Shown here: positions 7,891-32,025 of the stretch, piece after piece | Layout of the letters: each line of letters opens with the position of its first letter | Numbering within the stretch: the stretch's first letter is position 1 | Assembly (NCBI GenBank): GCA_003165335.1 | Contig: PLTD01000161.1 | Span: 1 to 36,749, forward strand | Direction of reading: 5' to 3' | Source: Rhodospirillales bacterium | Lineage (GTDB): Bacteria; Pseudomonadota; Alphaproteobacteria; BOG-932; Roseiterribacteraceae | Length of the DNA stretch: 36,749 bases | The notes under the pieces: model-generated | What the model saw: only the letters and a program-made list of their open reading frames with translations | The model's database searches: none | What the model was told of the DNA's origin: nothing | Made by a program: the position numbers and the translations under genes

Positions 7891-8934
7891 TCATGCGGCG
7901 GTCACGGCGGTGGCGGCGTTGCTCCAGCGGAAGTCGGTGCCATCGATCCACATCCGGTGGAGTATGACGGCCAGCCGCCTGGCGAGCGCGACGATGGCGC
8001 GCCTCATGCCCCGGCGCTGCGCGACGCGCATAGCCCAGGCCTTCAGCCATGACCATTTCTGGCTGTGGGTGAGCATCGTCTGCGCAGCTTCGTAGAGCAT
8101 CGTGCGCAACATGGCGTCGCCGCATTTGGAGACGCCGCCGTCATAGTCGGTCTCGCCCGACTGATGGCGCTTCGGCGTCAAACCGACGTGGGCGCCGACC
8201 GCCCTGGAATGGACGAAGCGGTGCGGCTGATCGACCGAGGCACGGTAGGTGAGCGCGACCACCGGTCCGACACCGGGCACGGTCATGAACCGTCGGCACT
8301 CTGGATCATGGCGAACGGTGTGGAGCAGCATCTTTTGGAGCGCGGCCAACTGCTGGCGCATCACCCGTCTGATCGTCAATAACGGCTCGACGATGGCAGC
8401 CAGTACGGGAAAGCCTTCGACCAGATCTCGGATCCTGGCCTCGTACCCGACCGTGTTGACCACGCCGCCCTTCAGCCCGAAGTTGCGCAGCGTGCCGCGC
8501 ATGTCGCACTCGATGTCCATCAGCTTGCGCTGGACAAGCTTACGGCTGGTCAACAGCATCCGTTGTTCTTGGGCCGCCAGCGTCTTTACGTGCACCGGCT
8601 TGAACAGGCCGACCCGCATCATCTGGGCGATCCCGCGGGCATCGTTGCGATCGGACTTGTTGATCTGCTGCGCCGTCAGCAAGGCCTTCATATGCCGTGT
8701 CTCGACGCACACGACTGGGAGCCCCGCCTCGGTCAGACCATTGACCAGCCACTGCGAAAGCGGTCCGGCTTCGATCCCGACCCTGACATACTCACCGCCG
8801 ACCGAGGTCAGCAGCACGGTTATGTCATCCGGCTCGGTCGCCACCTTCCGCTCACAAACTACCTTGCCGGCATCGTCCACAACGCAAACCGAAGTTTCCT
8901 TCACCGAGACATCCAGACCTACGAAATGTGCCAT
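7891..8934 (-). CDS. IS110-family transposase (DEDD)
   Basis: A 347-residue recombinase. The N-terminal RuvC-like DEDD domain has Asp8 (VGLDVSVKET), Glu55 (GIEAGPLSQWL), Asp95 and Asp98 (KSDRNDARGIAQ). The C-terminal Transposase_20 domain begins VPGVGPVVALTY and includes HVGLTPKRHQSGETDYDG, in which the conserved serine forms the covalent DNA link in this family. The length is normal and there is no frameshift, so the gene may be active. Two adjacent ATG codons are possible (8940 and 8934); AAGGAG is correctly spaced only for the second. IS110 recombinases work with a bridge RNA encoded in the element's own noncoding region, here most plausibly the structured DNA upstream. Confidence 0.9.
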   Translation of the reverse strand: MAHFVGLDVSVKETSVCVVDDAGKVVCERKVATEPDDITVLLTSVGGEYVRVGIEAGPLSQWLVNGLTEAGLPVVCVETRHMKALLTAQQINKSDRNDARGIAQMMRVGLFKPVHVKTLAAQEQRMLLTSRKLVQRKLMDIECDMRGTLRNFGLKGGVVNTVGYEARIRDLVEGFPVLAAIVEPLLTIRRVMRQQLAALQKMLLHTVRHDPECRRFMTVPGVGPVVALTYRASVDQPHRFVHSRAVGAHVGLTPKRHQSGETDYDGGVSKCGDAMLRTMLYEAAQTMLTHSQKWSWLKAWAMRVAQRRGMRRAIVALARRLAVILHRMWIDGTDFRWSNAATAVTAA

Positions 8935-8965
8935 CGCCATCGCTCCTTCCCTTGATGCGCGGGGT

Positions 8966-9411: not shown

Positions 9412-11106
9412 TCAGATTTCGGCCGACTTTTCGAGAGCGATTTCGATACGGCAGATCAGGCCTGATGGATCGAACTCGATGGCTACACTGCCGGAACCTC
9501 TAAGCGCCCGTTCGATCATGCGTGTGCCAAAGCCGGCCTTGCCCGAGGGTGGCTGTATCGCGGGTCCATCTTTCTCACGCCATGTCATTTCCAAAAGACG
9601 TCCTGCGTTGCGCCTCACGATAGCCCAGGTCAATTCTACTCGGCCATTCGGCGATCCGAGCGATCCATATTTGAGCGCATTCGTGCAGAGTTCGTGCACC
9701 ACCATCGTCAAGGCAAGCGCCTCCGCGGGCGGCAGTTCGACGTCCGGTCCGATCAGGCCGACGCGCAGATCCAGGTTGCCGACAAGGGGCTGAAACACGC
9801 CGATGAGAAGCTTGTGCAGGTCGGCGGCTTCCCAACGCTCGCGGGTCAGCACCTCATGGGTTCGCGCCAGTGCCCCGATGCGCGCGAGGAAATCCGGCAG
9901 GAGCTCCTTGCCTGCGATTTCCTTGTTCATCGTCGAAACCGCCAGCGCATGTACGGTCGCAAGGGTATTTTTAACGCGGTGTTCGAGTTCTCCGGCGAGT
10001 AATCCCTGTTGTTCCTGACTGCGGTCGATCTCGTCCATAAGCCGGTCGAGTTCAGCGCCGAGATTCCCTATTTCCCCGTTGCCTGCAACTTGGCGCGTTC
10101 GTGCGAGCCGATCGCCCGAACGCCACATTCTCAGCGATTGCGTTATCTGTTCGATGGGCCGAACGAATACCCTGCTTCCCATCGTCCATGTCGCAAGCAG
10201 CGTTGCGAGCGCACCGGATATCACGAGCGCCACACCAATGCGGGTTGCATCCTTCACAGCCCGATAGCTTGCATCGGTGGAAAGGCCCGCACTGACGTAA
10301 AGGCCGACGGGAGGCGCCGAGAGCGGCACGTATCCGAGGACGCGCCGCGTACCGTCTTGGCTTGTCACCTCTTCCCATCCGGGTTGCTGCGCCGTGAGCA
10401 GCCTAAGATAAGGGGTTGGAATTCTTGTTCCGACAAACCGGTCGGAAAAGGGTTGCCGCGCGATGATGACCCCGTTGCGATCGGCAACGGTCAAGGATCC
10501 ACCCGGGGGGACGCCGCGCTGTTGCAACATGTCGCCAAGCCAGGAAAGGTCGAGCGACGCCACAATCACGCCATTGGTGTTTCCGGCCTGGTCTTTTATC
10601 GCCAGGGCAATAGGAAGCACCGGCCGGCCTGAGATTTTGCCGATCGTATATTCGCCGATCACCGGTTTGCCCGATTGAAGTGCGTCGCGAAAATAGGGTC
10701 TTTCGGCGAAGCCTTCCTCAGGCACATGCGTCGGTGGAAAGCCACACCGAAGGTGACCTGTCGAATCGAGTATGACCAGGGCGTTCAAATTAGGAAGGTC
10801 GGATCGAAGCGCAGCAAGATATGAGCTGCATCCGGCATCGTTCAGGTCCCGGACGTCGGGCACATGCGAGACTGTGGCAATGAGAATTTTTACGTCGCTG
10901 ATGATTCGATCAAGCTCGAAAGCGCCCTGCAAGGCGCTTCGCACAGCAAGTTGTTCAACCTCTAAATGACGCGACCGATTTACTTGATATTGCGTGAAAG
11001 CAACGATCGCGAAGCCGGGAATCAGTGCGGCCAGGGACAGAGCGATAAGCCGGGTCCTGAGCGATGCTCCGGAGAATTTTGCGGACCAGGCGCTTCGACT
11101 CTTCAA
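9412..11106 (-). CDS. HWE-family sensor histidine kinase with periplasmic Cache-type sensor
   Basis: A 564-residue membrane kinase. A first membrane span (about residues 20-40), a periplasmic sensor of roughly 240 residues with dCache features (FAERPYFRDALQSGKPVIGEY, GVIVASLDLSWL), and a second span (about 290-308) are followed by a HAMP-like linker. The kinase core is HWE type: ELEHRVKNTLA with phospho-acceptor His376, Trp425 in TRERWEAADL, HELCTNALKYGS with Asn476, WRE at 489-491, and GFGTRMIERALRG as the G-box. HWE kinases in alphaproteobacteria often feed the PhyR general stress pathway or single-domain regulators. No response regulator is adjacent, so it is an orphan. The ligand is unknown. 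Confidence 0.88.
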   Translation of the reverse strand: MKSRSAWSAKFSGASLRTRLIALSLAALIPGFAIVAFTQYQVNRSRHLEVEQLAVRSALQGAFELDRIISDVKILIATVSHVPDVRDLNDAGCSSYLAALRSDLPNLNALVILDSTGHLRCGFPPTHVPEEGFAERPYFRDALQSGKPVIGEYTIGKISGRPVLPIALAIKDQAGNTNGVIVASLDLSWLGDMLQQRGVPPGGSLTVADRNGVIIARQPFSDRFVGTRIPTPYLRLLTAQQPGWEEVTSQDGTRRVLGYVPLSAPPVGLYVSAGLSTDASYRAVKDATRIGVALVISGALATLLATWTMGSRVFVRPIEQITQSLRMWRSGDRLARTRQVAGNGEIGNLGAELDRLMDEIDRSQEQQGLLAGELEHRVKNTLATVHALAVSTMNKEIAGKELLPDFLARIGALARTHEVLTRERWEAADLHKLLIGVFQPLVGNLDLRVGLIGPDVELPPAEALALTMVVHELCTNALKYGSLGSPNGRVELTWAIVRRNAGRLLEMTWREKDGPAIQPPSGKAGFGTRMIERALRGSGSVAIEFDPSGLICRIEIALEKSAEI

Positions 11107-11182: not shown

Positions 11183-11932
11183 TTAGACAGCGGACCAGCC
11201 GCCGGATACGACAAGTTCTTCGCCTTGGACAAAGGACGAATCGTCCGAAGCCAGAAACAGCACCGCCTTAGCGACCTCGTCGGCATTACCGAAGCGGCCG
11301 GCGGGCGTGCGCGATAGGATCGCCGCAACAGCCTGGTCCCGCGCTTCGGGCGGCAGACTGCTGTGCCCGTGCAGAGGTGTCAGAATCGACCCGGGACTGA
11401 CCGTATTGACCCGAATTCCCCGCCCGCTGAGTTCGGACGCCATCACCCGCACCATCGATCTAAGCGCCGCCTTGGTCGCCACATACATAGTCGTGCTGGG
11501 CAGGCCGATATGGATCATTGCCGAGGTATTGAAGATTACGCTCGAGCCATTGCGCAGCAGCGGCAGAGCCTTCTGCAGGGTGAAGAACGCGCCTTTGACG
11601 TTGGTCGCGAACATCAGGTCGAACGTCGCCTCGTCGATATCCGTGATCATGACCGGCCGAAAGATGCCGGCATTGGCGAAGACGATATCCAACCCGCCGA
11701 AGCGATCCCCGATTTCAGCCATCAATCGGTCCAGGTCGGCGGACTGTTCGACCGAACCGCGCACTGCCAGAGTCTCCCCGCCAAGTTCCGCGCGGACCGC
11801 TTCCAGGCGGTCTGGGTCGCGGCCATGGACGACCAGCCGCGCGCCTTCGACCGCGAACAGCCGCGCGGTCTCAAGCCCGATGCCCGAGGTGGCGCCGGTC
11901 ACCAATGCGATCTTGCCGTCCAGTTTGCCCAT
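11183..11932 (-). CDS. SDR family oxidoreductase (third gene of the cycloisomerase operon)
   Basis: A 249-residue classical SDR: TGATSGIG cofactor loop (12-19), NAG (87-89), catalytic Ser137, Tyr150 and Lys154 (YVATK), and a C-terminal VQGEELVVSGGWS in the FabG style. HGRDPDR after the second strand has an Arg at the place that commonly favours NADP(H). The gene starts 12 bases after the stop of the LLM oxidoreductase gene, with GAGGA in front. It is therefore the last member of a three-gene transcript led by the cycloeucalenol cycloisomerase-like protein. It probably oxidises or reduces a hydroxyl/keto group on the same substrate. Confidence 0.87.
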   Translation of the reverse strand: MGKLDGKIALVTGATSGIGLETARLFAVEGARLVVHGRDPDRLEAVRAELGGETLAVRGSVEQSADLDRLMAEIGDRFGGLDIVFANAGIFRPVMITDIDEATFDLMFATNVKGAFFTLQKALPLLRNGSSVIFNTSAMIHIGLPSTTMYVATKAALRSMVRVMASELSGRGIRVNTVSPGSILTPLHGHSSLPPEARDQAVAAILSRTPAGRFGNADEVAKAVLFLASDDSSFVQGEELVVSGGWSAV

Positions 11933-11944
11933 GAATTCCGTCCT

Positions 11945-12805
11945 CTAACGCATGTATCGGTTCGCAAAGGATTCCATATCGCGAATTTTGTCATCCAGGC
12001 TCATTCGGCTGGCGCGGCCGTTTTCGTCCAGCCAGGCGCTCTTGTGGATCTGGGTCACCCCCATCTCCTCGACCCGCTGCAAAGTATCGGTGCCGTAATC
12101 ATAGAGGTTGAGTTGGATCTCGAACGGATCGTTCGCCTTGCCCAGGGCTGTCCGCTCGGCGCGGAGCGCGGCGACGATCTCGGGAATTTCCGCGACGTGA
12201 TATTGGGCGCCGATCCAGCCGTCGAATCGGGCGGCCCGCTTATAGGCGGCGGGGCTGCGGCCGCCGATCAGGATCGGTACTGGCCTGGTCACGCCCGGCG
12301 ACATCTGCAGGCGCGGGAAGTCGTAGAACTGCCCGTGATACTCCACGATCTCTCCAGTCATCAGCCTGGGCATGATGTCCAGCATCTCGTCGGTGCGCTT
12401 GCCGCGGTCCGAGAAGGGCTGGTGGGCCAGATCGAACTCCGACTTCTGCCAGCCGATGCCCGCGCCCAGCACGACCCGGTTATTGGACAGCCGTGCCGCT
12501 GTCGAGACCGCCTTGGCGGCGCTGAACGGGTCGCGCATCGGCAGGACATAGACGGTGGACATAAATTTGAGAGTCGTCGTGACCTGTGACAGTGCCCCGA
12601 TCTCAACCCAGGGGTCGGGCCAGTGCGTTTCCGGATACCATAGGACAGCAGCGTCCTTGCTATAGTCATAGGCCTGATATTGGGATTCGAAGGTGATGAG
12701 ATGGTCGCCCAGCGCCATCCCTTCGAACCCGAACTCCTCCGCCTTTCGGCAAAGGGCCGGCAACTGGTCCATATCGACCAGCGCCATCACCTGCCAGAAC
12801 TTCAT
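11945..12805 (-). CDS. LLM-class flavin/F420-dependent oxidoreductase
   Basis: A 286-residue luciferase-like TIM-barrel protein. GFEGMALGDHL (residues 27-37) is the conserved strand-2 motif. VYVLPMRDPFSAAKAVSTAARLSNNRVVLGAGIGWQ carries the glycine-rich flavin-phosphate region, and SPGVTRPVPILIGGRSPAAYKRAARFDGWIG follows. It resembles the group often labelled F420-dependent (TIGR03619-like). In proteobacteria such proteins may use FMN instead, and no F420 biosynthesis gene is visible here. It is ten bases downstream of the cycloisomerase-like gene and 12 bases before the SDR, so it forms an operon with both. A monooxygenase or reductase role on a hydrophobic substrate is inferred. Confidence 0.85.
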   Translation of the reverse strand: MKFWQVMALVDMDQLPALCRKAEEFGFEGMALGDHLITFESQYQAYDYSKDAAVLWYPETHWPDPWVEIGALSQVTTTLKFMSTVYVLPMRDPFSAAKAVSTAARLSNNRVVLGAGIGWQKSEFDLAHQPFSDRGKRTDEMLDIMPRLMTGEIVEYHGQFYDFPRLQMSPGVTRPVPILIGGRSPAAYKRAARFDGWIGAQYHVAEIPEIVAALRAERTALGKANDPFEIQLNLYDYGTDTLQRVEEMGVTQIHKSAWLDENGRASRMSLDDKIRDMESFANRYMR

Positions 12806-12815
12806 GTGGGACTTC

Positions 12816-13643
12816 TTAGACTATCGGGCCATAGATCCAGGCGAAGAGGTCGATCAGCAGCAGCGTGATCATGCTGACGAAGCTTGCCTCGATGACGCAG
12901 CGCGACAGTTTCCATTTTTCGCCCGGCGGCTCGTCCAAGCGATAGACGTTGGGGAAGCTGACGATGAAATAGAGCATGTAGCAGAAGCTGCCGATGCGCA
13001 GCATACGGGCCTTGTCCAGGTAATAGACCGTATTGGCGACATCGGGCTGGATATAGAGATAGGTCTCCATGAAGGCGAAGAAGAAGGATGCCGCGACGAC
13101 GATGGCGACCCAGCTACCCCAGCGTGCGCCGGGATTCCAGTTGTTGGTCATGCTGCGCACCCGGCGCATCACGATGCAGGCGACGTTGTGATAGATGGTG
13201 AAGAAGGCCATCGTGTTCAGATAGATGCCGAGCGGGATCTTCTGGTGCGTAGCTAGCGCCGTCGCTTCGTCCGGCCCGCAGAGGCGCGAGTCGAAATAGA
13301 GCGACACATTCGGGAAATTGTAGCGCATGCCCAGAACCGAGAAGAACCACTCGGTGTGGAAATAGGTGGCGAAAAAGACGAAGACGCCGATCCAGATCTG
13401 GTACTTGAACCACCAGTCCTGGTTCCAGGCGACGCCCGATTTGCGGCGCAAGATCAGCGGCAAGATCACGCAATAGGGCAGCCACATCAGCAGATCCTGG
13501 GTGATGTGCCAGAAGTTGCCGGCGCTGACCCAACCCATCTTCTGCATAACGGCGTTGTAGATGAAGAAAATCGGAACGAAGATCAGATAGAATTTTTCCG
13601 CCCAGGCCCTGTCAGGGTTCTTCGAAAACCAATAGCCGCCCAT
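12816..13643 (-). CDS. Cycloeucalenol cycloisomerase-like integral membrane protein
   Basis: A 275-residue protein with several membrane helices, alignable along its length to plant cycloeucalenol cycloisomerase (CPI1, about 280 aa). Shared segments include an N-terminal WFSKNPDRAWAEKFYL, AWNQDWWFKYQIWIGVFVF, then YFHTEWFFSVLGMRYNFP. Later come FYTIYH-type FFTIYHNVACIVMRRVRS, FFFAFMETYLYI, LRIGSFCYMLYFIVSFP, YRLDEPPGEKWKLSR and the closing GPIV. CPI1 opens the 9beta,19-cyclopropane ring of plant sterol precursors. The bacterial role is unknown; isomerising a terpenoid or steroid is an inference. An ATG 15 bases upstream exists, but GGGGGAGA is spaced correctly for the start used here. It is the first gene of a three-gene operon and divergent from an HxlR-type regulator. 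Confidence 0.8.
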   Translation of the reverse strand: MGGYWFSKNPDRAWAEKFYLIFVPIFFIYNAVMQKMGWVSAGNFWHITQDLLMWLPYCVILPLILRRKSGVAWNQDWWFKYQIWIGVFVFFATYFHTEWFFSVLGMRYNFPNVSLYFDSRLCGPDEATALATHQKIPLGIYLNTMAFFTIYHNVACIVMRRVRSMTNNWNPGARWGSWVAIVVAASFFFAFMETYLYIQPDVANTVYYLDKARMLRIGSFCYMLYFIVSFPNVYRLDEPPGEKWKLSRCVIEASFVSMITLLLIDLFAWIYGPIV

Positions 13644-13722
13644 GATCGTCTCCCCCATTTTCCCGGCCGCTTTTGATTGGCCGTATGGGGGCGAGCCTAT
13701 GGTTCGGTGTGCGACTAATCCA

Positions 13723-13738
13723 GTTACTTCTTGGTAAC
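13723..13738. promoter_or_regulatory. Putative HxlR operator in the divergent promoter region
   Basis: GTTAC-TTCTTG-GTAAC is a perfect inverted repeat with a 6-base spacer. It is centred between the cycloisomerase operon (start 13643) and the HxlR-type regulator (start 13799). HxlR/DUF24 proteins bind short palindromes in such places, so this is the best operator candidate for the pair. Confidence 0.45.
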
Positions 13739-13798
13739 CATTTTGCTTGACGCGCGGACCTGCGGGCGCAAGAAGTCATCCCGCATGCAAGTAATAAG

Positions 13799-14224
13799 GT
13801 GATGGCGATTCCCCAGGATGATTCACAGGCATTCGGAGGTCACCGGGTCGGCCTGCTGTCCCGCGAACTGCTCCATACGATAGGGGACACCTGGTCGGCG
13901 TTGGCGCTTTTTGTGCTGTATGCCGAACCGCTGCGCTTCGGCGATCTGAAGCGGCGCATGGACGATATGGGGCCGCGGCTGCGTCGCACCGGGATCAGCC
14001 ACAAGGTTCTAGCCGAGACTTTACGGGGCTTGAGCCGCGATGGGCTGGTGACCCGTTCGGATGGCGTCGCCGCCGCGCCTGCCGAATACAGCCTGACACC
14101 GCTGGGGATGAGCTTCTGGCGCCCGATGATGGCGGTTCATGACTGGACAACCGACCATATCGACGAGATTGAAGCCGCGCGGCGCCAATTCGATTCCGAC
14201 CTGGAGAATGGCGGCAGCGGTTAG
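13799..14224 (+). CDS. HxlR-type winged-helix transcriptional regulator
   Basis: A 141-residue protein with the HxlR (DUF24) winged-helix pattern: LLHTIGDTWSALALFVLYAEPLRFGDLKRRM, then ISHKVLAETLRGLSRDGLVTRS as recognition helix and wing, and EYSLTPLGMSF. HxlR proteins commonly respond to electrophiles or oxidation through an N-terminal cysteine. This protein has no cysteine, so it more likely senses a ligand. The start is GTG at 13799, immediately followed by ATG at 13802; neither has a well-spaced ribosome site. It is divergent from the cycloisomerase operon across a 155-base spacer with a palindrome, so control of that operon is inferred. Confidence 0.8.
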   Translation: MMAIPQDDSQAFGGHRVGLLSRELLHTIGDTWSALALFVLYAEPLRFGDLKRRMDDMGPRLRRTGISHKVLAETLRGLSRDGLVTRSDGVAAAPAEYSLTPLGMSFWRPMMAVHDWTTDHIDEIEAARRQFDSDLENGGSG

Positions 14225-16621: not shown

Positions 16622-17698
16622 TCACTGAAATTGCGGCAGGACTTCTTCCTGGAGCGCGGTCATGGATGCCCGATAGGCCCCCATGTCGTCCAGATGGTCA
16701 TAGACGACCTGCAGCATGCAGCCGAAATCGCCCACCGTGTCGCGCAGCTTTGCCAGTTTTTCGGCGGCGGTTTTCGGGCTGCCGACGATCCAGACCTTGT
16801 CGGCCAGATAATCGACCGTCACGTCTGAATCGGCCACGCTCTGGTCGTGTTTGCAGCCGGAGATGAAATTATTCTGGCGCATTAGCGGCAGCATATAATT
16901 GTGCCAACATTCGCCCATCAGCCCATTCACCGCCAGCCGCCGCGCCTCGGCGTCGGTTTCAGCGATGTAGATTTCGCAGCCGATGCGCCAATCGGCGCGG
17001 TTTGGCGTCAGGCCTGTGCTGTCCGCGCCCTCGCAATAGACCCGCCAGTGCGACAGAAGATGGTCGGGGCTCCAGCACAGGCTCATCGGCATCAGGCCGC
17101 GTTCGCCCGCAAAGCGCAGGGTGGGGGAAGAACCGCTGAGCCCGGCGATGGCGACACGGGGATAGGGTTTGGTGCGGGGTGTAAGATGGAAAGCCAGGTC
17201 CTGCCCCACGGGTTCCGGCCGGCCGCCCTTGTAATAACGCCCCTCATGCTGAAACGGGCCGTCGATGGTCCAGAATTTCACCATCAGGTCGAAGGCCTCG
17301 ACCATCATGTCGCGGTTCTCGCCCGCTGCGGCATCGACGGCGAACATCGTATGGTCGGTCGGCAGGCCGCCCGCGCCGATGCCGACCATGAAGCGCCCGC
17401 CCGATATCTGGTCCAGCCAGGCGATGCGATGGGCGAGTTCGGCCGGCACATGATAGGGCAGCAGGAATGCGCCCGCGCCCAGCCGGATTTTTTCGGTCTT
17501 GAGCAGGGCCTGGGCGATGAGAAGATCGGGCGCGGGCAGGGGCTCGCGCTTGCAGGTGAAATGCTCGCCGACCCAGGCCTCATCGAAGCCGGCGCGGTCG
17601 GCAAAGGCCAATATGTCCAGGTTATGGGCATGCCCCTCCGCATAGTCGCGGTGCGGCGGGTGATTCGGCATCATGAACAGCCCGGATTGCATCGGCAT
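16622..17698 (-). CDS. LLM-class flavin-dependent oxidoreductase (limonene monooxygenase-like)
   Basis: A 358-residue bacterial-luciferase-fold protein. The opening LFMMPNHPPHRDY and AFADRAGFDEAWVGEHFT closely follow the N-terminus of limonene 1,2-monooxygenase-type enzymes, in which the HF/HH region is near the flavin. LGAGAFLLPYHVPAELAHRIAWLDQISGGRFMVGIGAGG holds the second flavin-binding strand, and GRYYKGGRPEP the substrate-side loop. Such enzymes use reduced FMN and O2 to oxygenate small hydrophobic molecules; the present substrate is unknown. It has an AT-rich promoter-like region with an inverted repeat upstream, and the YffB-like gene directly downstream. Confidence 0.85.
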   Translation of the reverse strand: MPMQSGLFMMPNHPPHRDYAEGHAHNLDILAFADRAGFDEAWVGEHFTCKREPLPAPDLLIAQALLKTEKIRLGAGAFLLPYHVPAELAHRIAWLDQISGGRFMVGIGAGGLPTDHTMFAVDAAAGENRDMMVEAFDLMVKFWTIDGPFQHEGRYYKGGRPEPVGQDLAFHLTPRTKPYPRVAIAGLSGSSPTLRFAGERGLMPMSLCWSPDHLLSHWRVYCEGADSTGLTPNRADWRIGCEIYIAETDAEARRLAVNGLMGECWHNYMLPLMRQNNFISGCKHDQSVADSDVTVDYLADKVWIVGSPKTAAEKLAKLRDTVGDFGCMLQVVYDHLDDMGAYRASMTALQEEVLPQFQ

Positions 17699-18192: not shown

Positions 18193-19317
18193 TCAATCGC
18201 CTTGCGCCCGGAAATGAGGGATCACGTGGCGACCGATATTGCCGATGGTCTGCATAATGATGTCGTGCGGGATCGTGCCCATCTGGGGCAGGAATAGAAT
18301 CTCGTCGGCGCCTGCCGCCTTCAGCCGTTCGACATAGGCGATGGCGTCCCAGACGGTGCCGTAAGCCGCGTCGAAATCGTAATAGCCGGTGTGCTGCTCG
18401 GTGGGTGTGATCTTGACCTCGTCGAGGAAGGCCAAGACGCGTTTTTTGTGACGCTCCATCTCCTCCGTCTGCTGTTCGATGCTGAGGTCGGGAATGTCGG
18501 GCGGCGGGCCGCCGGCATACCAATAGGCGAGCGATTCGGCGAAGAAGCGCTGGCCGCGCACGCCGATCCGCCGCGCCTCGTCTCGGTCTTCGAGCACGAC
18601 GGCGGGGCACAGCACCGCCAGATGCTCGTTGGGCCGGAAGCCCACCTGATCGGCCGGGTTCCGGTCGCGGTAGGCCTTGCGGTACATGGCGTTCTTGCGG
18701 GCGAATTCTTCAGGACCGCTGAAGCCCAGGACCAGAGCACCCATGCCGCGGGCCCCGGCGATCATCACGCTCTCGGGTTTAGAGCAGGCCATATACATCG
18801 GCGGATGCGGGTCCTGATAAGGCTTGGGGTGGATCGGGCGGGGCGGAATCTCGATCAGCCCGTGATGCTCGAATTCATCCTGCATCCACATCTTTGGGAT
18901 CATATACATGGCCTCGTCGACCTGGGCGGTGATCTGGTCGAGCGGGATCTGGAAGGCCCCGGCCTCCTGCACCGTGTTGCCCTTGCCGACGCCGAAATGG
19001 ACCCGGCCGCGGGACAGAATGTCCAGTGTGGCTACGCGTTCGGCGACTTTGATCGGGTGGTTCATGGCGAAGGGCAAGCAGATGACGCCGTGGCCGACAT
19101 GGATGCGCCGGGTAGCGCCGGCGATGAAGGCGAGCAGGGATTCGGGCGCGGAGATATGGGAGTACCAAGTCAGCGCCGTGTGCTCGACCGACCAGATGAC
19201 GTCGAAGCCGAGATCGTCGGCCAGCAGGCTTTGCTCGGCCATGTCGCGGTAAAGCCGCGCCTCGCCGGACCTGGTGATGTCGCTGGTCGCGCCTTCGTAG
19301 ATGATCGAAAACTTCAT
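18193..19317 (-). CDS. LLM-class flavin-dependent oxidoreductase
   Basis: A 374-residue luciferase-like protein. MAEQSLLADDLGFDVIWSVEHTAL gives the conserved strand with the EH pair, and HVGHGVICLPFAMNHPIKVAERVATLDILSRGRVHFGVGKG the flavin-binding half. IPPRPIHPKPYQDPHPPMYMAC begins the long C-terminal insertion seen in alkanesulfonate/monooxygenase-type members. Reduced-flavin monooxygenation of a small molecule is expected; the substrate is unknown. The ATG at 19317 follows a G-rich ribosome site (AAGGGG). It is divergent from the amidohydrolase gene across 140 bases, so the two may share control. Confidence 0.84.
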   Translation of the reverse strand: MKFSIIYEGATSDITRSGEARLYRDMAEQSLLADDLGFDVIWSVEHTALTWYSHISAPESLLAFIAGATRRIHVGHGVICLPFAMNHPIKVAERVATLDILSRGRVHFGVGKGNTVQEAGAFQIPLDQITAQVDEAMYMIPKMWMQDEFEHHGLIEIPPRPIHPKPYQDPHPPMYMACSKPESVMIAGARGMGALVLGFSGPEEFARKNAMYRKAYRDRNPADQVGFRPNEHLAVLCPAVVLEDRDEARRIGVRGQRFFAESLAYWYAGGPPPDIPDLSIEQQTEEMERHKKRVLAFLDEVKITPTEQHTGYYDFDAAYGTVWDAIAYVERLKAAGADEILFLPQMGTIPHDIIMQTIGNIGRHVIPHFRAQGD

Positions 19318-27801: not shown

Positions 27802-28911
27802 TCACGCCACCGGCGGGATTACCCCCAGCTCCTGATAGCGCCGCATGTATTTTCGGATCATGTCGGCTGTGTCGATGACACCGTGGAAGCCGTGCTGGTG
27901 GATCTTGACAGTGCTGGCCAGCCCATAGCGCACCACGTCCGTCGCCGCGATCGGCGCAGTCCAGGCGCCGCCCACCTCCAGCGATTCGCCGAACAGCGCC
28001 CCAGGGTCCTCCGGCGCACGCAAGCCATATTTGCGGACCATGCCGGGCCACAGATGGAGCAGCTTCCTGAGCTCGGTGATGATCTCGAAATTGTCGGGCG
28101 CGCCCAGTTCCATATTCAGGGCCTCGGCGACGATCGGGAAGGCGTCGTGCAGCGAGAAGACGTCGCCGTTGGTCAGGTTGAAGGTCTCGTTGCGCGCGGC
28201 GGGTGATTCCGCCGCCCATTCCAGTCCTTCGGCGATCAGGTCGGCGTCGGCGACATCGGTCACCATGCTGGGGCCGGTCGGCTGGGGCAGGGGAAGGCCC
28301 GCCTCCTTACGTAGGGCGGCGAAGATGCCCAGCACCAGATAGGAATTCATGTTCGAGCCGATCGCGTCGCCGGCGATCATCGCGGTGCGGAACACGGTCG
28401 ACGACCATGTGTGTCCGGCCCGCTTGGCAGCGATGTAGTCTTCCTGGTGATAATAGAAATTCTCATGCGGAATGCGCGGCAGGCTTTCCTTAAAGGGAAT
28501 CGGCATGACCCGGTCCCAGAGGTGTGATCCATAGGCCTTCATCCCGTGCATCAGCGAGATGTGGCGGAAGCCCTTGGCGGCGCTGAGCAGCGGGTCCATC
28601 ACATTGGTCAGCATCGCCAGGTTCTTGGCCGCCTGCCCGGGGTCCTGCCAGCCGACAACCATATTGCCCTGCATCTCGTTAACCGCCGTATAGGCGACAT
28701 GGGTGATATCGTTCATGGCGCCGAACACCTCGCGGCAACGGGCAGTGTCCAGCAGGTCGACGGGAATGAACTGCGCCTTGCCCAGTGGCACGAAAGGCGC
28801 GCGGCGCGACACCGCGACGACCTCCCATTCGTCGCGGCCGCCAAACAGCTTGACCGCCGAAGTGCCGACGAGCCCCGACGCCCCCACGATCAGTATCTTC
28901 TTCCCCGCCAT
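27802..28911 (-). CDS. PRISE-family NAD(P)-dependent reductase (progesterone 5-beta-reductase/iridoid synthase-like)
   Basis: A 369-residue extended SDR. KKILIVGASGLVGTSAVK is the nucleotide-binding start. MHGMKAYGSH near residues 121-130 aligns with the TGxKHY segment carrying the catalytic Lys (Lys125). PHENFYYHQEDYI (about 149-161) is the hallmark NFYYxxED motif with the catalytic Tyr (153/154), and HTWSSTVFRTAMIAG is the following conserved strand. PRISE enzymes reduce 1,4-enones such as progesterone or 8-oxogeranial. A similar reduction of an enone from terpenoid or steroid breakdown is inferred. An ATG four codons upstream exists, but AATGGAG is spaced correctly for 28911. The gene converges on the MFS small-subunit gene. 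Confidence 0.82.
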   Translation of the reverse strand: MAGKKILIVGASGLVGTSAVKLFGGRDEWEVVAVSRRAPFVPLGKAQFIPVDLLDTARCREVFGAMNDITHVAYTAVNEMQGNMVVGWQDPGQAAKNLAMLTNVMDPLLSAAKGFRHISLMHGMKAYGSHLWDRVMPIPFKESLPRIPHENFYYHQEDYIAAKRAGHTWSSTVFRTAMIAGDAIGSNMNSYLVLGIFAALRKEAGLPLPQPTGPSMVTDVADADLIAEGLEWAAESPAARNETFNLTNGDVFSLHDAFPIVAEALNMELGAPDNFEIITELRKLLHLWPGMVRKYGLRAPEDPGALFGESLEVGGAWTAPIAATDVVRYGLASTVKIHQHGFHGVIDTADMIRKYMRRYQELGVIPPVA

Positions 28912-29022
28912 CGAATGCTCCATTTCCTATGTACGGGAGGCTCTTAGCACAGCTGATCCGTGTGCCGATCCGAAAATTGCGACGCATCTACAAAGATAGC
29001 GCCGAGCTCCGATATAGAGTAG

Positions 29023-30688: not shown

Positions 30689-31123
30689 TCACGGCGCGAC
30701 GGGCAATTCGGTCGTCTCAACCCAGTCCACGATCAATTCACGCTTGGCGAACAGCCAAGCGCCATCTTGCCTCATGAACCGGTCCTGATAGCGGATCCCC
30801 CAGTCGATCCGGACCTGCTTGCCGCCTTCGGGTCGCTTCAGATGGTAGGCGACTGCATAGGTCTCGCCCTCGGCCGTGTCGCCTGTGATGGTCACAGTTT
30901 GATTCCGGACCGTATGCAGCGTCGATGCATAGAGGCCGTCCAGTCGTGACGGAATGCCCAATATTTGTGTGCGGCCGCGCCAAGCGTTGCCGCTGCGGTC
31001 GATCACCCCGTTTTCGGTAAATAGACTTGCCAGCGCTTCGGCATTTCGGCGGTCGACCGCTTGGGCATAGAGATTGGCCAGGCGATACAGCGCCCATTCG
31101 TCCTGGGGCGCGCTTTCGCTCAT
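30689..31123 (-). CDS. SnoaL-like (NTF2-fold) protein
   Basis: A 144-residue SnoaL/NTF2-like protein. DEWALYRLANLYAQAVDRRNAEALASLFTENGVIDRSG is the conserved N-terminal helix pair, and later TLHTVRNQTVTITGDTAEGETYAVAYH carries the conserved His-strand. It is homologous in fold but not closely similar to the SnoaL-like protein two genes downstream. The ATG at 31123 overlaps the LLM gene's stop by four bases (ATGA), which argues against a longer start upstream. The substrate is unknown; a dehydratase or isomerase partner to the LLM oxidoreductase is inferred. Confidence 0.8.
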   Translation of the reverse strand: MSESAPQDEWALYRLANLYAQAVDRRNAEALASLFTENGVIDRSGNAWRGRTQILGIPSRLDGLYASTLHTVRNQTVTITGDTAEGETYAVAYHLKRPEGGKQVRIDWGIRYQDRFMRQDGAWLFAKRELIVDWVETTELPVAP

Positions 31124-32025
31124 GTCACGCTGTCCCGCCACGCTGTGATGCGCTTGAAGAAAGTGGGAAGCTCGCCGGCCGTCTTGCACCATGCGGAGGG
31201 AATGAACTCGATGACGTTGGCGCCGGCTTCGATCATTGCCGAGACGGATCCCAGGGTCGATTCCAGGTCGGGACGATCCTGACCCGGCTGTACTGCCGGC
31301 CTTATGCCGACACGAACCTGGGCAACCGCAGGGTCGCGACCCTTGGCGGCGAAGGCATCGCGCAGCGCCTTGATATGAACCGCCAGTACTTCCGGATTCC
31401 GCTCCATCGGAATCCAGCCGTCGCCGTAATCGGCGATGCGGGCGAAATTCTTTTCAGTCGGCTTCAGCCCGAACCACATCGGGATGCCGCCCGTCTGGAC
31501 TGGTCGCGGGAAGGCATGGATTCGATCGAAACTGACGGTTTTTCCTGCAAAGCTTGCCGGTGCCTGCGACCATAGAAGCTTACAGACCGCGACCTGTTCA
31601 TCCATTCGAGTATAGCGATTTTCCCATGGCAGGCCGGATGCGTCGTATTCTTCCTTCTGCCAACCGATGCCCAGTCCTATCGTGACCCGGCCGCGCGATA
31701 TTACATCCAGCGTCGCCAACTGCTTGGCGAGCAGCACCGCAGGCCGGAGCGGGGAGATCAGTACTCCGGTTGAAAGGCGTATGCGCTTGCTGACGGCGGC
31801 GACTGCCGCCAGCACCGTCAACGGCTCGAACCAGGGATAATCCAAAGGCATGGGAAAGGGACCGTAGGGGTAATTCTCCAGATGTTCGCCCATCACGACA
31901 TGGTCTGTGATGCTCAGCATATCGACGCCGGCTTCGTCGGCCAGACGTGCGGCATCGACCACGCCGGAGAAGTCGCCGCCGTATAGACGTTCCATTCCGA
32001 TGATCCCGATGGACACCTTCACCAT
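31120..32025 (-). CDS. LLM-class flavin/F420-dependent oxidoreductase
   Basis: A 301-residue luciferase-like TIM barrel. LADEAGVDMLSITDHVVMGEHLENYPYG marks strand 2. LAKQLATLDVISRGRVTIGLGIGWQKEEYDASGLPW is the signature of the TIGR03619-like group, with the flavin-phosphate motif and the WQxxE stretch. GGIPMWFGLKPTEKNFARIADYGDGWIP follows. It is close in design to the LLM protein of the cycloisomerase operon. Flavin versus F420 use cannot be decided. It overlaps the SnoaL-like gene by four bases and lies 74 bases after the FAD-linked oxidase, so it probably belongs to one transcript with both. Confidence 0.85.
   Translation of the reverse strand: MVKVSIGIIGMERLYGGDFSGVVDAARLADEAGVDMLSITDHVVMGEHLENYPYGPFPMPLDYPWFEPLTVLAAVAAVSKRIRLSTGVLISPLRPAVLLAKQLATLDVISRGRVTIGLGIGWQKEEYDASGLPWENRYTRMDEQVAVCKLLWSQAPASFAGKTVSFDRIHAFPRPVQTGGIPMWFGLKPTEKNFARIADYGDGWIPMERNPEVLAVHIKALRDAFAAKGRDPAVAQVRVGIRPAVQPGQDRPDLESTLGSVSAMIEAGANVIEFIPSAWCKTAGELPTFFKRITAWRDSVT

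Follow-up and report, generated by a model that had tools for sequence, protein, structure and literature searches.

What does a relative of a plant sterol isomerase do in an alphaproteobacterium? In plants, many algae and certain protists, sterol synthesis runs through cyclopropyl intermediates. The plant cycloeucalenol cycloisomerase (CPI) opens the cyclopropane ring by protonation and subsequent proton loss, yielding a delta-8 sterol. The enzyme, a cyclopropylsterol isomerase also named CPI1, is known from plants and from Dictyostelium (PMC8172173). The stretch of DNA analysed here (the window, 36,749 nucleotides) encodes a CPI-like protein in a unit of three genes. Our main reading, to which we give a probability of roughly two in three, is that this protein belongs to a bacterial part of the CPI superfamily and opens the 9beta,19-cyclopropane of external plant- or algal-type sterols for breakdown. 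The gene unit and its surroundings consist of the following features.

12816..13643, reverse strand: CPI-like protein, 275 aa, a multi-helix membrane protein and cyclopropyl-sterol isomerase homologue (ORF, orthologue, homologues in sterol-demethylation clusters)
11945..12805, reverse strand: LLM-class oxidoreductase, 286 aa, the coupled downstream gene (PF00296, TIGR03619 (F420_Rv2161c))
11183..11932, reverse strand: SDR-family dehydrogenase, 249 aa, a classical SDR and third gene of the unit (PF13561/PF00106)
13799..14224, forward strand: HxlR-family regulator, divergent from the CPI gene (PF01638, E 2.6e-13)
13644..13798, unstranded: divergent intergenic region of 155 nt between the CPI-like gene and the HxlR gene, probable promoters/operator

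The initial annotation had placed all four genes correctly; its gaps of 10 nt (CPI-like to LLM gene) and 12 nt (LLM to SDR gene) and the facing HxlR gene are likewise borne out. The start of the CPI-like ORF at 13643 is preferred over an alternative in-frame ATG at 13658, since a Shine-Dalgarno-like GGGGGAG lies 6 nt upstream of the former. The intergenic region carries two inverted repeats, imperfect or short, and may serve as an operator; HxlR would then control the CPI unit. The LLM protein scores 180.5 bits against TIGR03619, above the cut-off of 166.9, and CofD, a protein of F420 biosynthesis, is found above its curated cut-off in the window's genome (G000:C132:11365-12261).

The CPI-like protein has no match in Pfam or NCBIfam, neither of which contains a CPI profile, and no sequence relative in the PDB. 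Assignment to an unrelated membrane family, named in the initial annotation as one of two outcomes that would speak against CPI, was not obtained, as the two collections placed the protein nowhere. A structure model built from two sequences reached a pLDDT of 41, and only its helix pattern is usable. The plant reference was an approximate version of Arabidopsis CPI1 rather than a database entry. The window protein, which is of similar length, is 31% identical to this approximate reference over 252 aligned positions. Searches with this reference using phmmer gave E-values from 3e-31 (the window protein) to 6e-40, with no matches among 2000 shuffles of the window protein. These figures would fit the proposed whole-length likeness to plant CPI1, to the extent that an approximate reference allows. 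When the seven bacterial proteins are aligned with the approximate plant reference, 45 columns are invariant, and the invariant polar residues include E16, K80, H152, R160, R161, E193, T194, D237, E238 and D265; the family's polar pattern (a W-x-E start, then K, H, RR, ET, DE and D) is kept in the window protein. At the level of sequence, the second outcome named against CPI, a loss of conserved residues, was thus not seen either. The likeness to the plant enzyme, as a comparison of sequences, may be regarded as a strong lead; the independent argument comes from genomic context.

A peptide-pattern scan of genome contigs identified an orthologue in the Rhodospirillales MAG RYN_452, 70% identical over all 275 residues. 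The scan gave this one relative because such patterns reach close kin only. CPI homologues are very rare. Of the 289 alphaproteobacterial genomes covered by whole-genome searches, five encode one: two belong to the window's genus (in which G000 is the window's own genome and G246 a sister genome that appears to be RYN_452) and three, at 36–39% identity, to a second alphaproteobacterial genus, here called g43. Two further g43 members were found in the small orders around both genera, bringing the total for g43 to five genomes. The g43 homologues are full-length, 34–39% identical to the window protein (E 1e-40 to 1e-44) and 35–38% identical to the approximate Arabidopsis CPI1. In the 398 genomes of the phylum that were searched with a profile, no further credible relative came up; a weak match in G345 (E 3.6e-4) contains an internal stop and was dismissed as noise. 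No relatives were found in the plasmids or viral contigs searched. Since a full-length orthologue at 70% and homologues at 34–39% in a second genus exist, the CPI-like protein is not a product of chance.

The company that these homologues keep points to sterols. In M. capsulatus, a CYP51-ferredoxin and an 8,14-reductase (8,14-Bsr) act as a pair to demethylate and reduce sterols; 8,14-Bsr activity has also been shown for a protein of M. tuberculosis, a sterol degrader, and pairs of CYP51 and 8,14-Bsr occur in sterol-degrading Mycobacteriales and also in alphaproteobacteria (PMC13277303). CYP51 was found in 7 of the 289 alphaproteobacterial genomes, and all five CPI genomes are among these seven; such a subset, together with the clustering of the genes in g43, is what would be expected of a protein working with CYP51 in a sterol pathway. 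The probability of this co-occurrence by chance is 1.3e-9 by genome and 1.2e-4 by genus (CPI in two of three CYP51 genera, among 223 genera), the latter being the fair figure because genomes within a genus are not independent. The third CYP51 genus has the enzyme (40–41%) without CPI (G065:C11:4694-6025 and G185:C88:81826-83157).

The gene order SDR (3beta-HSD/SdmB-like), 8,14-Bsr-like, CPI homologue is conserved in all five g43 genomes, and a CYP51-ferredoxin fusion lies directly upstream of the cluster in the three genomes checked (3/3). The g43 CPI homologues are thus flanked by counterparts of the known bacterial sterol-demethylation genes (CYP51-ferredoxin, 8,14-Bsr and SdmB), where the Bsr-like call is one of position, size and a weak PF12680 match (SnoaL/ketosteroid-isomerase-like) rather than of direct comparison with a published 8,14-Bsr. 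An HsaA-like gene is located at most about 8 kb from CPI in g43. Around one g43 cluster (L009, 10567-14143 and 15657-19469) there are, besides an HsaA-like monooxygenase, a second 3beta-HSD-like gene, an aldehyde dehydrogenase, a TetR-like regulator and a ferredoxin reductase; these surroundings could possibly form a complete sterol-demethylation and degradation island.

This context also bears on whether the window protein is no more than a remote membrane-protein relative that does something unrelated, such as serving as a transporter or chaperone for the LLM and SDR proteins. The lack of a curated family model covering the protein and the poor structure model would leave room for such a function, but full-length, highly significant similarity to proteins in CYP51/8,14-reductase clusters and the invariance of the charged residues make it quite improbable.

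Genes of the same kind are present in the window's own genome. G000 encodes two CYP51s, 46 and 44% identical to the g43 enzyme. The best PDB matches of the first are the CYP51s of M. capsulatus (5e-124) and M. tuberculosis (3e-107), its leading matches are CYP51s, and a ferredoxin gene adjoins it. One Bsr-like (8,14-reductase-like) protein is also encoded, so that the likeness to the known demethylation genes extends to CYP51, ferredoxin and a Bsr-like gene; unlike in g43, however, CPI is not linked to CYP51, and the CPI and CYP51 genes lie on different contigs. At one locus of G000 (L043, contig C26, 9547-12343) a CYP51 has a neighbouring ferredoxin and LLM gene, with SDR, aldehyde dehydrogenase and SnoaL-like genes farther along; the region probably belongs to the sterol route of this genome as well. 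Ten KshA-type (KshA_C) Rieske proteins are encoded in G000, and its contig C95 carries a cluster of KshA-like, HsaA-like and HsaC-like proteins. This cluster, like the HsaA-like gene near CPI in g43, resembles the genes of 9,10-seco degradation (KshA, HsaA, HsaC), although the HsaA and HsaC scores on C95 fall below the NCBIfam equivalog cut-offs, marking the proteins as relatives rather than proven orthologues.

Plant CPI1 serves sterol synthesis, and a bacterium making cycloartenol-type sterols itself would give the window protein the same role. Sterol-making bacteria too have CYP51 and a homologue of the 8,14-reductase (PMC13277303). De novo synthesis calls for squalene epoxidase plus an oxidosqualene cyclase, and this combination was not found in G000. 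Squalene epoxidase (PF08491) has no match in G000 or G246, where it should be noted that G000 comprises 265 contigs at about 96% completeness, so genes could be missing. The cyclase that is found is of the hopene type: the full-length cyclase of the sister genome is a squalene-hopene cyclase (TIGR01507, 788 bits), and the cyclase of G000 adjoins hpnA-like, hopanoid-type genes. A second, weak cyclase-domain match on contig C62 of G000 is probably the other half of a split cyclase gene. No SQHop cyclase match at all was found in the g43 genomes, and steroid-degradation genes are abundant. A biosynthetic CPI is therefore exceedingly improbable, and was rejected on the grounds of the missing squalene epoxidase and the hopene-type cyclase. 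Given these two observations and the steroid-degradation genes, the window's bacterium most likely takes up external sterols and degrades them rather than making them.

In 9,10-seco degradation, KshA hydroxylates C9, and the C9-C10 bond of ring B breaks once ring A has been aromatised. A 9,19-cyclopropane blocks this pathway because C9 then has no hydrogen; cyclosterols would become accessible if CPI acted ahead of CYP51 and the 8,14-reductase. We infer the substrate, the reaction and its direction, the accessory roles and the regulation of the CPI unit. Externally supplied sterols of the cycloartenol or cycloeucalenol kind would be the substrates. As in the plant enzyme, CPI would presumably protonate C19 of the cyclopropane while C8 is deprotonated, so that a delta-8 sterol with a 19-methyl group results. 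The ring-opened product would be 14-demethylated by CYP51 and then reduced by the 8,14-reductase-like protein, after which the C4 methyls would be removed and the product would enter the KshA/Hsa 9,10-seco pathway. Both redox enzymes would take accessory steps: the SDR would probably oxidise a 3-hydroxysteroid, and the F420-type LLM protein would carry out a hydride transfer on this substrate. On balance, a catabolic branch running from CPI through CYP51 and the 8,14-reductase to C4-demethylation, and feeding cyclosterols into the alphaproteobacterial 9,10-seco pathway, seems probable. According to one report (PMC12667688), 4,4-dimethyl compounds are poor substrates for plant CPI enzymes.

The window protein differs in places from its homologues. 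Relative to the g43 sequences and the approximate plant sequence, its branch has an insertion after residue 120. The central motif G-N-Y-F-x-x-x-Y-F-F, a putative family hallmark that is reportedly critical in plant CPI, is matched by GNYFGSEYFF in g43, whereas the window protein has ATYFHTEWFF, keeping only Y-F and F-F. The altered motif and the insertion, which also set the window copy apart from plant CPI1, suggest that its substrate may differ. It could be a CPI-fold isomerase acting on other cyclopropane or strained-ring triterpenoids, such as cycloartane saponin aglycones, or on a late steroid intermediate, with the LLM and SDR proteins as dedicated partners. Identity of only 34–39% to the g43 proteins in sterol-demethylation clusters, and LLM and SDR rather than CYP51 as neighbours, would agree with such a shift. 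However, CYP51 and the 8,14-reductase-like protein are kept in both genomes of the window branch, and the conserved polar residues are retained, so that a shifted substrate appears rather doubtful.

Several points speak against pressing the main reading too far: the changed motif of the window branch, the separate contigs of CPI and CYP51 in G000, the approximate plant reference and the lack of conserved LLM and SDR partners. The initial annotation had proposed a sterol or terpenoid isomerase in a catabolic-looking three-gene operon. The link of the CPI family to sterols and to catabolism stands, through the CYP51 co-occurrence, the g43 clusters, the steroid-degradation genes and the lack of sterol-synthesis genes, and a sterol-directed catabolic role for the homologue, as predicted from sequence, is well supported by context. 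The operon trio, on the other hand, is not conserved: no orthologous trio of LLM, SDR and CPI was found in the other genomes searched. The CPI gene of RYN_452 does have LLM and SDR neighbours, but with identities of only 33% (LLM) and 29–36% (SDRs) to those of the window and a different arrangement, so that the three genes were rejected as a conserved module; in g43, CPI has no LLM gene beside it. Both enzyme classes are very common in G000, and the window by itself encodes four LLMs. Of the proteins compared with the LLM of the CPI unit, the most similar adjoins a KshA-type Rieske gene in G000 (L068), which fits a steroid-type role. The weakest element of the scheme is the function of the LLM (F420-type) and SDR proteins, which probably catalyse redox steps on the same substrate or a related one.

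In the literature searched on sterols and CPI, whose coverage takes in few subscription journals, no paper was found to describe a bacterial CPI or a role of the family in sterol degradation. The study of 8,14-Bsr, an enzyme already examined in an E. coli system, makes no mention of a cycloeucalenol isomerase in its main text (PMC13277303). A 1991 paper is cited there as reporting microbial transformation of cycloartenol (PMC13277303). If the main reading is correct, a dedicated bacterial ring-opener would explain the mineralisation of cyclopropyl sterols, assign a role to the pairs of CYP51 and 8,14-reductase that have been puzzling in sterol degraders, and extend a plant and protist enzyme family into bacteria. 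Such an enzyme might possibly help to convert waste plant sterols into precursors of steroid drugs.

Other genes of the window deserve brief mention. Three further LLM (Bac_luciferase) proteins are encoded at 16622-17698, 18193-19317 and 31120-32025; together with the many KshA-type Rieske proteins of the genome, they suggest that a wide range of steroids and terpenoids can be broken down. The protein encoded at 27802-28923, which has a PRISE-like Rossmann domain (progesterone 5beta-reductase/iridoid-synthase-like family), may be another steroid-acting enzyme. Beyond the SDR gene, an IS110-family transposase (7891-8940) lies next to an HWE histidine kinase (9412-11106).
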